Virus record (IMG/VR): IMGVR_UViG_3300030294_000162
Location: 1-23,483 of that record
DNA: 23,483 bases
Direction: 5' to 3' (one strand)
Source of the DNA: a virus
The notes under the pieces were generated by a model. The model was not told the origin of the DNA. It searched no databases and worked only from the letters and a program-made list of their open reading frames with translations. Each line of letters begins with the position of its first letter. The first letter of the stretch is position 1. The translations under genes and the position numbers were made by a program. Shown piece by piece: positions 11,911 to 20,000 of this stretch.

Positions 11911-13779
11911 TTACAACCCCTTTTTTATACATCCATATTGTTGTTTTTTATTTTCTGTATTTTTTTCTATATTTTCACCACCGCTTGATTGTTCATTTAT
12001 AAGTTTTTCATAAACTGTCCAATCCGGATTTACGCTGTAAAGACAGGCTAAATTATAAATTTGCAAATCAATCGGTTCATTTCGTTTGTCTTCCGCTATA
12101 TTTACCCATACTTTTTCAAACCTTCCCTTTACGATTTTTTCTTGCAATTGTTCAGATAGCAGCCCCTTATAATAAGCACCATCATAGCCGCGTCGATCAT
12201 CTAAGGGGAAATGCAGGAAATATGGTCCTGGTTCTGTTTTTTCTTTGAGTCTTTGCAAAATATATTGTTTACCATCATTTACCCCAATTAGTATGAGCGG
12301 TAACGTTGGGTACCCATCCGCTTTACCAAGTTTATACAAAATAGGTATGCCAAACGCTTGATGTCCTTTGATTGCATATCTTTGTTTGTATCTATTTTTA
12401 TCACAATATTGATAAACATTTTTACTATAATGCCCACCAGAATCTATAAATGTTCTGGCTACTTTTATTCCTTTTCCATTTGCAAATCTATAGGTTCGAT
12501 CAAGCTGCTGATCGAGTGAATCCCATGTTGCGTCCTGATCTGGTACACCTAAAATAACACCTTTTTTTATTCCCCATCGTTCTTCATCTTTTCCCCAACC
12601 TGCAATTTCATATTCTAGTCGATTATCCTGCGTATCAACAGCAGCGGTCAGCACCAAAACCCCATCTGGCAATTCTGCGGCATATTCTTCGCGCCGTTTC
12701 ATAAGAATATCAATGTTTTTTATTTCACCCGTTGGCTTATATAACTCTGCTAGCCGTGTATTTACAAACGTTTTTAAAGATTCCGGTGCATCTTTAACGA
12801 CCAAATATTCTTGTACGATCGTTTTCCATGACAACCAAGGGCTTGCAAATGCGTTAACGTGAAAAGACCGAACATCTGTAATGTTCGGATTTAGAATTAT
12901 ATATTTTTGTTCTGTAGCTTTCATTTCTCGTTCATAAAATTCATGTCCACAATCTGGACAACGCCATTTTACAGAATCAACTCTGTAAGATTTTCTTTCA
13001 TCAATCTCAAATGTCTCAAACTCATAGATCATATTCCAAATCGTGACCCAGTGGAATTCTTTGCAGTTCGGACATTTATGCTGCCATTCCTCTTGTGTTC
13101 CAAGCATGTACTCACGATAAATCCTACTTTTTAGATCTGTTGGCGTGGAAAATAAACCAATAATGTGATTCCAAAAATTTGATGTTCTTTTTATTCCTAA
13201 GTCAACCGGATCACCTTCCGTTCCTGCTGATTTTTCAAATCTATCTACTTCGTCATATACTAAAACGCGGATACTTCGCTTTGCGAGTCCTGATGGTGCA
13301 TTGGCGCCGACAAGAGCAAGATATCCGCCGGGGAAAATCTTTTTTAATATAGTATTTTTGCTACTTCTTGATTTTTGTTCATGTATTCTTTCCGCTAATA
13401 CCGGAGTCCTATTAACCGTCGGCGTAAGTCGTTCTTTTGACCAGTCTTCGGCATCCCCGAGCGCTGGTTGAACCATCAGTATTGGACAAGGGTCTAAATG
13501 AATAAATCTGCCTAAAACATTAAACAAAATTTCTGATTTACCAAGTTGTGCACTAATCATAGCAATGACTTTATGCACGCCCATTGCTGTGAAAGCATCC
13601 ATAATTTCTTTTTGATATGGGACTCGACTTGTATTCCATTTCCCTGGTTCTGCGCCATATTCTTCTGGGATAAATCTGTATTCATCTGCCCATTCAGATA
13701 CGCTCATACGTGGCGGCGGAGCTGCCATGCTGAGAATTTTTTTAAATAAATCAATTGTTTTCTTCGGTATCTTCGTCAT
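11911..13779 (-). CDS. Terminase large subunit, GpA family
   Basis: About 622 residues, the motor and nuclease that packages DNA. Near the N-terminus MSVSEWADEYRFIPEEYGAE and WNTSRVPYQKEIMDAF are diagnostic of the GpA family. A deviant Walker A is seen at SAQLGKSE (76-83) and Walker B at LVYDEVD (173-179). Two Cys pairs (C236/C239 and C273/C276) form a zinc-ribbon pattern. The nuclease part begins with AAVDTQDNRLEYEIAGWG (first Asp at 382) and continues with FIDSGGHYSK. GpA-type enzymes make staggered cos ends. ATG 13779 is chosen because GGTGA lies about 8-9 nt upstream; TTG 13809 and ATG 13806 lack a site. It overlaps the small subunit by 29 nt. Confidence 0.95.
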   Translation of the reverse strand: MTKIPKKTIDLFKKILSMAAPPPRMSVSEWADEYRFIPEEYGAEPGKWNTSRVPYQKEIMDAFTAMGVHKVIAMISAQLGKSEILFNVLGRFIHLDPCPILMVQPALGDAEDWSKERLTPTVNRTPVLAERIHEQKSRSSKNTILKKIFPGGYLALVGANAPSGLAKRSIRVLVYDEVDRFEKSAGTEGDPVDLGIKRTSNFWNHIIGLFSTPTDLKSRIYREYMLGTQEEWQHKCPNCKEFHWVTIWNMIYEFETFEIDERKSYRVDSVKWRCPDCGHEFYEREMKATEQKYIILNPNITDVRSFHVNAFASPWLSWKTIVQEYLVVKDAPESLKTFVNTRLAELYKPTGEIKNIDILMKRREEYAAELPDGVLVLTAAVDTQDNRLEYEIAGWGKDEERWGIKKGVILGVPDQDATWDSLDQQLDRTYRFANGKGIKVARTFIDSGGHYSKNVYQYCDKNRYKQRYAIKGHQAFGIPILYKLGKADGYPTLPLILIGVNDGKQYILQRLKEKTEPGPYFLHFPLDDRRGYDGAYYKGLLSEQLQEKIVKGRFEKVWVNIAEDKRNEPIDLQIYNLACLYSVNPDWTVYEKLINEQSSGGENIEKNTENKKQQYGCIKKGL

Positions 13780-14269
13780 CAATGGCTTCACCAAGCTTCG
13801 ATGCATCAAAAGAAGACAGTGCTGTTAAGGCTCCGTTTATTTCTTCTGTCAACATTTCATTAATTTCATCGGTGTTTTTCCCCTCTATTCTTGGTGACAT
13901 CTTGTAAGGAATTGCCAGCATTTGCCTTTTAAATACAGTAACCATTCCCCCAACCGCCAATTCAATATCCGATGTGTTATGCATTTCGTTCTTCAATTCC
14001 GCCAATTTCATCTCAGTAAGTTCTCGTTTTGCCTTTTCATGGAGCGCCTTTTCATGGTCTAAGGATAACTCCCCATTTTCATCACTTTCACCACTGTGCG
14101 ATTTGTAGAAATTCTTTAAACTTTCGATGACAACAACAGCTCCATTTTCAGTTCGAACAATTGTTTCTTCTTTGACTAATTGACTAACTCTTTGTTGTGT
14201 AATTCCAAGGACTCGTGCCATTTCCGTTTGGGTCGTGGTCGTGTCTTTTAAATTCTTGGAAATTTTCAT
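13751..14269 (-). CDS. Terminase small subunit, Nu1-like
   Basis: A 172-residue protein. A winged helix-turn-helix is seen at about residues 13-45: TQTEMARVLGITQQRVSQLV followed by a wing (VRTENGAVVVIESL). It is then charged and helical (HEKAKRELTEMKLAELKNEM), with a C-terminal acidic tail. This is the domain order of lambda Nu1 (DNA binding at cos, dimerisation, contact with the large subunit). It lies directly before the large subunit, and the noncoding stretch upstream (14270-14429) is the likely place of its DNA target. GGGGGTGA lies 4 nt before ATG 14269. Confidence 0.88.
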   Translation of the reverse strand: MKISKNLKDTTTTQTEMARVLGITQQRVSQLVKEETIVRTENGAVVVIESLKNFYKSHSGESDENGELSLDHEKALHEKAKRELTEMKLAELKNEMHNTSDIELAVGGMVTVFKRQMLAIPYKMSPRIEGKNTDEINEMLTEEINGALTALSSFDASKLGEAIDDEDTEENN

Positions 14270-14646: not shown

Positions 14647-14943
14647 TCACCTTCCTTCAGGGTACAGCCTATTTAGGTAATCCTCACAATGCCGGCGTAT
14701 CGGTTCGCTATGTTTACTTTCCCGCTCTTGATGATGTTTGTAACATAGCAAGCATCCTTTTTCTGGTACGTCTTCTTTGTATGGGCCGCATGGCTCATGA
14801 TGCCATTTTTCGTTAATTGATACATAACCATCGCATCCTGGGACAATGCAGGTATAATTGTCACGTTCATGAATCTCTAGGTTTAATTTAATGATTGCAT
14901 TGCCTTTGAGTTTCACACGTTTGTGCTTGCTAAGGTCCATCAT
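14647..14943 (-). CDS. HNH-like endonuclease next to terminase
   Basis: A 98-residue protein with RDNYTCIVPGC, WHHEPCGPY and GCLLCYKHHQERE, the order of a beta-beta-alpha metal HNH fold: first Cys pair, His-His, Cys pair, final HH. The central Asn of the classical HNH motif is not evident. HNH proteins encoded beside terminase genes are known to act with terminase in cos cleavage and head morphogenesis in several phages, so a packaging role is likely. ATG 14943 (AAGGGG 9 nt upstream) is chosen over GTG 14964, which would start inside the leader. It is the first gene after the promoter/terminator switch. Confidence 0.8.
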   Translation of the reverse strand: MMDLSKHKRVKLKGNAIIKLNLEIHERDNYTCIVPGCDGYVSINEKWHHEPCGPYKEDVPEKGCLLCYKHHQERESKHSEPIRRHCEDYLNRLYPEGR

Positions 14944-14964
14944 AGTTCTGCGCCCCTTTCGCAC

Positions 14965-15000
14965 ATAAATAAAAGCGCCGTCGAATTATCGACAACGCTT
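14965..15000 (-). terminator. Intrinsic terminator, second of a tandem pair
   Basis: In minus-strand RNA a 12-bp stem (15000-14989 with 14984-14973, two U-G pairs, UAAU loop) is followed by UUAUUU. On the plus strand the two U-G pairs become C/A mismatches, so the structure belongs to leftward transcripts. It lies just before the ribosome binding site of the HNH gene. Confidence 0.75.
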
Positions 15001-15009
15001 AATTTTTTG

Positions 15010-15044
15010 TATAAGAAAAAGCCGTTAGCAAATGCCAACGGCTT
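15010..15044 (-). terminator. Intrinsic terminator, first of a tandem pair
   Basis: Minus-strand RNA forms an 11-bp stem (15044-15034 with 15029-15019, one G-U pair) with an AUUU loop, and the stem runs into UUUUUCUU. On the plus strand the G-U pair becomes an A/C mismatch. It ends transcripts from the early region and would also stop RNA from the promoter at 15119-15091 unless prevented. Confidence 0.85.
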
Positions 15045-15052
15045 AGATATTT

Positions 15053-15066
15053 ATGTAAATTTACAT
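15053..15066. promoter_or_regulatory. Perfect 14-bp palindrome, candidate operator
   Basis: ATGTAAATTTACAT is a complete twofold palindrome located about 20-30 nt after the predicted transcription start of the leftward promoter and just before the first terminator. This is a suitable place for a repressor or an antitermination factor. With 14 of 14 symmetric bases in A+T-rich DNA it is suggestive but not proof. Confidence 0.45.
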
Positions 15067-15090
15067 TTAGAGACACGACCAATTAAATTC

Positions 15091-15119
15091 ATTTTAACCG
15101 ATTCGTCAAAAAATGTCAA
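15091..15119 (-). promoter_or_regulatory. Strong sigma-70-type promoter facing the packaging/structural genes
   Basis: The minus strand has a perfect -35 box TTGACA (15119-15114), a 17-bp spacer and a -10 box TAAAAT (15096-15091, 5 of 6 matches). Transcription should start near 15084 and enter the HNH and terminase genes after about 140 nt. It is the best promoter match I noticed. It directly follows the stop codon (15123-15121) of the last early gene. Confidence 0.8.
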
Positions 15120-15120
15120 A

Positions 15121-15450
15121 TTATCTTGATTCAAATAATCCACTACCTCCGGCAAGACCAGCATTAATTTGTGACAGAGACTTTTTCTTCATGGCGCTTG
15201 AATTACTCTTTCCATTGCTGCTTCCACCTCCGCCCTTTGCGGCTTCACCAGCTGGTAAATACTCTTTAGACGGCAGATTCGATTTATATTTTTCCTGCAT
15301 CATCTGTACAACTTCATCCCGTGGCTTTGATTCTATAGGATACCAGACTTCAATCCCACATTTTGGACATTTATAGAAATCATCCTGTTCGTTATATTTC
15401 ATAGGTACGCGGCAATCTTGGCAGAACCAAAGTCCTCTTTTTTCAGCCAT
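15121..15450 (-). CDS. Zinc-ribbon protein with Gly/Ser-rich tail
   Basis: A 109-residue protein. Residues 7-37 have the pattern FCQDC-x12-KCPKCGIEVWYP, a four-Cys zinc ribbon as in many nucleic-acid-binding proteins. The second half is Lys/Ser/Gly-rich and probably unstructured (GGGGSSNGKSNSS). ATG 15450 is preferred (AGAGG about 10 nt upstream) over ATG 15486, which lacks a site. It is the last gene before the terminators and promoter, so a regulatory role (for example as late activator or antiterminator) is conceivable. That is inferred from place alone. Confidence 0.7.
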   Translation of the reverse strand: MAEKRGLWFCQDCRVPMKYNEQDDFYKCPKCGIEVWYPIESKPRDEVVQMMQEKYKSNLPSKEYLPAGEAAKGGGGSSNGKSNSSAMKKKSLSQINAGLAGGSGLFESR

Positions 15451-18258: not shown

Positions 18259-19383
18259 TCATGCCAAATTTATTGGATCATGATAGGTAGCAGCTTTTTG
18301 ATGAATTTGTCTGATCTGCGGATTCGATTCTGCTTGATCTATTAATACCGTTGCTTCCATACCTTCATCTGTGTAAATTACTTGATCTGCATTCTTCAAT
18401 TTTTTATGGCATGCACGACAACATGTTTTTGAATTGTAGACCAACGCTGCAAAATATTTTTGACCGCAAGAACATTCCACATGATAGAGTTTTTTCTCTG
18501 CGTAGGATTGCCTTGATGATATTTCTCGATGTTCTGTAAATTCATCCGGTGGTACGTCTTCCATGCTATCAATATGTAATGCTGCAATTTCTTGCGTATC
18601 GATGGCAAAAACAGAATCATCAATTCGGGCTGAACATATTGGGCGGTTATTCATTCCTTTGAATCCTTGATAAGTTAATTCGGCAAATTCTTTCGGTAAA
18701 AATCGATTTATCTTTTCTCCATTTTTAAAAACGATATAACATGCAACGCCTTTATCTTTTATGCGTTCAGTTTTTTCTTGGATGTCTTTGTCAATGGCTT
18801 CATTCTTTTCTGTCGGTTTAGCATTTTCAACCATGAGCGGTTCTCCTATATCATCCTTTGCAAAAATATTTTTTGATTCTAATTTTTGCGCGTCCGCTGG
18901 TGCCTCAACGTATGAATACTGACACACCGTTTTTGCTTCCGGATTAAGTGGATATACACCATACCGACTGAGAAGCTGGCGCAAGCGGCATTTTCTATAC
19001 TCTTGGCCATCACAAGTTTTACAAGTTTTTTCAATGACTAAGGCATACCAATCATTAAAATCATCGATACTCATAATGAATTGATTCTGAAATTTATTAA
19101 TTTCTTCGTATTCTTTTTTTGCTTTATCGCTCGGAACAAATATAATTGGCTCCAGCTTGCTGACTTGTTTTGCAAAATTGTAAGCAGCATCTTCGTCAAG
19201 AAACCCTTGTCTATATGTGATTGCTTTTTTTAACCATGTCAGTCCTGTTTTCAGACTCTTCATAAATTCCTTATCTGGATTTTTTGATTGCCCATATCCT
19301 TTAAAGATCTGATCCGCTGTCCCTAGAATCGTAACCAACCGGACAAAGGTCGTTTTTTCTTCCCTAGATAAATAACTATTCAT
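18259..19383 (-). CDS. DUF5651-domain protein with zinc-finger-like Cys clusters
   Basis: A 374-residue protein. The first 100 residues (YLSREEKTTFVRLVTILGTA, and LKTGLTWLKKAIT) match the DUF5651 domain known from Bacillota phages. Then follow CKTCDGQEYRKCRLRQLLSRYG (four-Cys site), a charged linker, an RNA/DNA-binding-like basic segment, and CSCGQKYFAAL with TCCRACHKKL (second site). Acts probably on nucleic acid in the early region; no biochemical role is established to my knowledge. A strong AAGGAGG inside the preceding small ORF serves ATG 19383. Confidence 0.75.
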   Translation of the reverse strand: MNSYLSREEKTTFVRLVTILGTADQIFKGYGQSKNPDKEFMKSLKTGLTWLKKAITYRQGFLDEDAAYNFAKQVSKLEPIIFVPSDKAKKEYEEINKFQNQFIMSIDDFNDWYALVIEKTCKTCDGQEYRKCRLRQLLSRYGVYPLNPEAKTVCQYSYVEAPADAQKLESKNIFAKDDIGEPLMVENAKPTEKNEAIDKDIQEKTERIKDKGVACYIVFKNGEKINRFLPKEFAELTYQGFKGMNNRPICSARIDDSVFAIDTQEIAALHIDSMEDVPPDEFTEHREISSRQSYAEKKLYHVECSCGQKYFAALVYNSKTCCRACHKKLKNADQVIYTDEGMEATVLIDQAESNPQIRQIHQKAATYHDPINLA

Positions 19384-19673: not shown

Positions 19674-20000
19674 TTAGACCGTCTTCTCACTTTCTATCTT
19701 CGCCCCACATTCCGGGCAATATTTTATTTGGTCCTGCTCAATCAGCACTTTGTTGTCCCGCCCGCACTGTTTGCATATTCCTGTAACTTGCTTTTCATCA
19801 AATTCTTCAACTATTTTTATTACGGCCGAAATGTCTTTGTCTTTTCTTGGTATCCCACAGTCATATGCTTTTAACGGGCATTTATCGTTGCATTCTCTAC
19901 TTTCAAAACTGGTGCATATTTCATTCACCCGCTGTATATATTTTTTTGCAATCATATTTCCATTTTTGACTTTTGTTGTATCCATCTTTTTATTTTCCAT
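19674..20000 (-). CDS. Zinc-ribbon phage protein with C-P-L motif
   Basis: A 108-residue protein. The centre has CTSFESRECNDKCPLKAYDC, a compact Cys-rich unit found in many small phage proteins, followed by a helix (DISAVIKIVEEFDEKQ) and a C-terminal zinc ribbon CKQCGRDNK...YCPECGAK. Metal binding is very likely; function is unknown. ATG 20000 has GGGGAGG about 7-8 nt upstream, just after the stop of the DUF3102 gene. Confidence 0.75.
   Translation of the reverse strand: MENKKMDTTKVKNGNMIAKKYIQRVNEICTSFESRECNDKCPLKAYDCGIPRKDKDISAVIKIVEEFDEKQVTGICKQCGRDNKVLIEQDQIKYCPECGAKIESEKTV

Follow-up and report, generated by a model that had tools for sequence, protein, structure and literature searches.

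A candidate antitermination switch ahead of the late genes of Negativicutes phages, with a zinc-ribbon protein as putative factor

To our knowledge, late-gene control has been little studied beyond Proteobacteria and Bacilli. In Firmicutes phages, RinA, ArpU and Ltr act as activators of late promoters, so that a small protein encoded just upstream controls the packaging and structural operon. The lambda Q system works by other means, and a −35-like sequence is among the elements that it needs. The recognition element of Q lies between the −35 and −10 elements of the promoter and in phage 21 takes the form of a direct repeat (PMC6606751), while a −10-like element in the initial transcribed region causes the pause needed by both Q and AlpA (PMC6606751, PMC9371919). 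Here we describe a promoter–terminator module in a window of 23,483 nucleotides (the whole stretch of DNA analysed, a 23.5-kb viral record) and in related loci. Judging from sequence comparison, we think it rather probable that this module is a Q/pR′-like late-gene switch of Negativicutes (Sporomusaceae-type) phages, in which a zinc-ribbon factor is loaded near the promoter and brings about read-through.

The early block of the window lies to the right, and its last gene (15121–15450; like all features of the module and the late block, on the minus strand) encodes a zinc-ribbon protein of 109 amino acids, with a CxxC...CxxC arrangement and a basic C-terminal tail that ends in a short helix, which we propose as the antitermination factor. 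The module stands between early and late genes, and the packaging and structural block comes after it: an HNH endonuclease-like gene is the first past the module (14647–14964; PHROG 119, E 1e-4), followed by the genes for the terminase small subunit (13751–14269; PHROG 57, E 4e-29) and a gpA-type terminase large subunit (11911–13809; Pfam GpA ATPase and nuclease). Strong promoters within 1.5 kb after the module occur at chance level (13 seen versus 12.3 expected). Pfam, PHROG and further checks found no known protein of the Q, ArpU or RinA type among the window's proteins. More CxxC zinc-ribbon-like segments are present in two early proteins, a DUF5651 protein (18259–19383) and a protein of 108 amino acids (19674–20000).

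The late promoter (15119–15091) comprises a −35 element TTGACA (15119–15114), a 17-bp spacer and a −10 element TAAAAT (15096–15091) and, at 11/12, is the top promoter match in the 18.5 kb scanned. Two intrinsic terminators lie downstream, at 15044–15010 (hairpin 15044–15019 and a U-rich tract) and at 15000–14965 (hairpin 15000–14973 and a U-rich tract), and both hairpins rank at the top of the window's terminator list. The initial annotation, made from the sequence of the window, had described this promoter, a palindrome after it and the two hairpins; its coordinates and sequences were exact. The composite did not arise when the window was shuffled 200 times with dinucleotides preserved, and in none of these shuffles (0/200) was an 11/12 promoter followed by so much as a single strong terminator on its strand. 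The annotation had also described the stems as continuous only in leftward RNA, and folding the RNA of both strands agreed: leftward RNA forms unbroken stems of −17.6 and −18.2 kcal/mol (z −6.3 and −5.7), and in rightward RNA the stems have interruptions and are weaker, at −13.8 and −11.9 kcal/mol.

Homologues of the zinc-ribbon protein were gathered from viral contigs and from genomes of the class that contains the Sporomusaceae starting genome, in which they were present in 27 of 381 genomes (E 1e-3); the assignment of the module to Negativicutes hosts of the Sporomusaceae type rests on the group of that starting genome. We then compared the DNA after the gene at 34 distinct loci with homologues, from viral contigs and Negativicutes genomes, using 1069 ORF ends from the same DNA as the control. 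A sigma-A-type promoter with a spacing of 16–18 bp was found at the end of the zinc-ribbon gene at 28 of the 34 loci (8.2% in the control), often with the TGA stop codon of the gene inside TTGACA. Promoter and terminator under one strict rule were found together at 20/34 loci (0.8%), a TTGAC within the promoter spacer at 21/34 (0.3%) and all three at 18/34 (0.1%), in a sample with few independent lineages. The promoter–terminator module is therefore conserved across related phages ahead of the packaging and structural block, as the late switch suggested in the initial annotation would have it. The terminases that follow belong to unrelated families of at least four types (gpA, Terminase_3, Terminase_6 and TerL), indicating that the module moves as one mosaic unit that phages exchange.

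Terminators were found in the equivalent place at 25 of the 34 loci when imperfect stems were counted, with the structure kept and the stem sequences mostly unrelated. The second terminator of the window is kept in a close relative (L036/L037), in which a G-U pair of the stem is exchanged for A-U. No terminator was found at L040, and no clear one nearby at L173 or L186. At L040 and L044 the promoter and initial transcribed region are intact, the sequence beyond differs and no terminator was found, as if a foreign late block had been joined by recombination. Several loci also carry an intergenic element, GCAGGA-N-TCCTTTTTG(T/C)CGAA, which contains a Spo0A-box-like TG[TC]CGAA and is present in 8 copies in ~339 kb (sites L112:2990, L114:5425, L173 (-), L183 (-), L239:3281, L108:7194 and L188:2762); several copies stand right behind the module terminator and others between late genes, and none was seen in the window. 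In L002 and L003, which have a related terminase and no zinc-ribbon gene that we could see there, a terminator-like hairpin (CGTAGTC...GACTGCGTC) with a T tract lies ~0.3–0.4 kb upstream of the terminase small subunit gene, and L003 has a promoter-like TTGAC...TATACT immediately ahead of its packaging genes. Further switches with such a layout may therefore exist.

Beyond the features first annotated, the module holds a second TTGAC in the promoter spacer (15109–15105) and a conserved initial transcribed sequence. In an alignment of 28 promoters, the spacer TTGAC is present in 22 (shuffled rate 1.7%), 6–11 bp ahead of the −10 element; it is degenerate in L040, L046 and L047 and missing in L111 and L186. 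The discriminator and initial transcribed region of the window (15090–15068, GAATTTAATTGGTCGTGTCTCTA; expected +1 near 15084) is kept in the anchored alignment, its conserved initial transcribed sequence being TTTAATTGGTCGTG (15087–15074). The consensus of the module is TTGACAnnTnTTTGACAnATnTGnTATAATnAAnTTAATTGGT, which includes an extended −10, and that of the initial transcribed sequence is TTTAATTGGT, then YCTA near +14 to +17. Since these conserved parts keep a nearly fixed distance from the promoter and include the untranscribed spacer, they point to the stage of initiation or early elongation. The spacer TTGAC, our proposed loading site, may bind the factor itself or, like the −35-like sequence of lambda, a paused complex through sigma region 4. 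A classical −10-like hexamer occurs in the initial transcribed region of 4 of the 28 leaders, compared with 9.7 expected from shuffles, and is thus depleted. The comparison with lambda pR′ drawn in the initial annotation is limited by this absence of the −10-like pause element of Q, which makes a strict copy of lambda pR′ unlikely.

The perfect 14-bp palindrome of the window (ATGTAAATTTACAT, 15066–15053), which had been put forward as the site of the factor, did not hold up in that role: conservation of its left half ends at one close, 90%-identical relative (L036/L037), and with only these two sequences containing the whole palindrome we rejected it as a conserved operator. Its right half belongs to a wider motif, box B (ATTTACATAA, 15060–15051; consensus GTTWACATAA), and TTWACATAA is found 26–31 nt past the −10 element in 12 of the 28 leaders (0.17% expected by chance in each). 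The motif also occurs in reverse orientation in L176 and, in L170, ahead of the promoter.

The zinc-ribbon gene had also been named as the candidate for the factor, and here the comparison was favourable, with the module tied to this gene across loci. A pattern scan of viral contigs with TAWAMTNNAWTTAATTGGTC returned 65 stretches, in which all true members had the zinc-ribbon gene except for one incomplete contig (L044) and the remaining stretches were chance matches. Searching in the direction from site to gene, we ran a sequence-only model of the module on the 381 genomes and on chosen loci. Complete modules were detected beyond the zinc-ribbon gene, ~2.1 kb downstream in L177, ~1.4 kb in L179 and ~5.3 kb in L185; in these three the gene ends in its own terminator and no such promoter follows directly. 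In L227 the module lies ~0.4 kb downstream, behind another small gene. All four loci were out of sample and not used in building the model. At L234 and L239, which were later additions, a promoter with the spacer TTGAC adjoins the zinc-ribbon gene. That gene and site are kept in one phage though not adjacent is expected if the zinc-ribbon protein acts in trans on the site. Two matches were exceptions to this pairing: G305:C2, with only a C-terminal remnant of the gene adjoining and other copies in the genome, and a 3.5-kb contig (G149) without the gene; terminase relatives in other Clostridia and in Veillonella-type phages gave no match to the model.

The zinc-ribbon protein had no family match in Pfam. 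In an AF2 model, a local zinc ribbon (pLDDT ~85 for residues 11–30) is accompanied by one helix, a conserved stretch that is disordered and a short helix at the C terminus; no helix–turn–helix (HTH) is seen, with low confidence for everything beyond the ribbon. Foldseek returned only generic zinc ribbons for this model and none at E < 0.001, Pfam, PHROG and PDB gave no match of the Q or AlpA type, and no sequence similarity to known antiterminators was detected. We found no homologues in records of isolated phages or plasmids and, in the wider phylum, one in 399 genomes (E 1e-6), without an adjoining module; the family would otherwise remain a 'hypothetical protein'. In a variant of 190 amino acids (L128/L149, G256:C23) the zinc ribbon occurs as a tandem duplicate, and its gene is not followed by a promoter module.

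In the mechanism that we propose, host RNA polymerase carrying the main sigma factor would start constitutively at the late promoter and, without a phage factor, would halt at one or both terminators to leave an RNA of ~65–115 nt. Once produced from the last early gene just upstream, the zinc-ribbon protein would load onto the polymerase at or near the promoter, using the TTGAC box of the spacer together with the conserved initial transcribed sequence, after which the modified polymerase would run past the terminators and transcribe the packaging and structural genes. What the comparison shows is that the zinc-ribbon gene, the spacer box, the initial transcribed sequence and the terminator are conserved and occur together, also where gene and site lie apart, and that the module precedes the late genes; we infer that the terminators are functional, that the zinc-ribbon protein is the factor, that it loads at the promoter and that read-through is the outcome. 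The placement between early and late genes, a promoter that should not require an activator, a terminator in the path and conservation confined to the promoter, the spacer and the first transcribed bases all fit an antitermination factor that loads at the promoter, as known for Q, AlpA and GafZ (PMC11150451), and the zinc-ribbon protein is the most likely such factor. More tentatively, as a serious possibility that falls somewhat short of probable, it may be a processive antiterminator of a new class, small, built around a zinc ribbon and free of an HTH, which loads through the spacer TTGAC and initial transcribed sequence, with no sigma pause at a −10-like element.

The terminators might instead be bypassed by another phage or host factor, with the zinc-ribbon gene a mere neighbour travelling with the promoter. 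The zinc-ribbon family is the sole one at all sampled loci within 4 kb upstream, and no other exceeds 9 of 31 loci, yet its universality arises partly by construction because the loci were found via this protein; the family also has a generic fold with weak matches to unrelated zinc-ribbon proteins. On the other hand, gene and module occur in the same phage even when detached, and on balance we consider another factor unlikely. Still less probable is that the protein is an activator or a regulator of the anti-sigma type and the terminator a leaky attenuator that sets the level of late-gene expression. A conserved box within the promoter rather than at the terminator would suit such a role, but promoters that already have a good −35, an extended −10 and a −10 should need no activator, and strong tandem terminators would stop most of the transcript.

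Other readings concern the leader itself. A promoter, a conserved RNA 5′ end and a terminator are also the anatomy of a gene for a small regulatory RNA, here of 65–115 nt, with an incidental link to the late genes, and Rfam gave weak sRNA matches, all sub-threshold. However, conservation reaches into untranscribed spacer DNA, neither the RNA body nor the majority of the stems is conserved, and the locus is placed ahead of the late block; we regard this reading as very unlikely in its own right, although it could coexist with the antitermination model. Marginally less credible is an operator, at which a repressor bound at ~+20 to +35 would prevent late transcription during lysogeny, the terminators serving only to tighten control. 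The fixed distance of box B, its inverted and upstream occurrences and its extension to a palindrome in the window are what one might expect of such a site, but it is missing from over half of the leaders, it is common to phages with unrelated genes whereas repressor sites are normally phage-specific, and both the terminator and the spacer box would be left unexplained. A protein-free antitermination RNA acting in cis, like put of HK022, is the most improbable of all. Only a few leaders fold well (L047 and L177), folding of 33 leaders, a kind of check proposed in the initial annotation, revealed no common structure (mean z −0.3), and usually only 17–50 nt precede the terminator stem.

Should antitermination by the zinc-ribbon protein be correct, promoter-proximal late-gene antitermination would have arisen again with an unrelated protein, and ~30 natural candidate pairs of factor and site would be at hand. 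With a spacer TTGAC and an initial transcribed region but no second −10, what an antiterminator needs for loading becomes a directly testable question.

We found no comparable system described in the literature for this group of Negativicutes phages. The module shares with RinA, ArpU and Ltr a small protein encoded just upstream of the packaging and structural operon, but these are late-promoter activators, and none was detected among the window's proteins; it differs from put of HK022 in having no conserved leader RNA hairpins. The AlpA-dependent alpB promoter of Pseudomonas aeruginosa likewise combines an element in the −35/−10 spacer with terminator bypass (PMC9371919), the latter being our proposal for the module, but the fold of AlpA is an HTH like that of 21Q, and AlpA depends on a −10-like sequence. 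In the Caulobacter gene transfer agent, GafZ likewise goes with a putative −35/−10 element, a structural-gene promoter and terminator bypass (PMC11150451), again a presumed property of the module, but GafZ has a sigma-like HTH, acts with GafY and IHF and faces a terminator located after the first gene. As in the lambdoid Q/pR′ system, the gene of the candidate factor immediately precedes the late promoter and an intrinsic terminator follows at a short distance; the place of the Q element between −35 and −10 is taken here by the conserved spacer TTGAC, a putative binding site. Unlike Q, the module's protein is a zinc ribbon with no predicted HTH and no detected relation to Q, and the module lacks a −10-like pause element, shows conservation instead in the initial transcribed sequence and in box B and belongs to a Negativicutes host. 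The module has neither the −10-like pause element nor a protein of the Q or AlpA type, two defining features of Q systems, so we do not class it with them, but Q-like action is still the reading that we favour.
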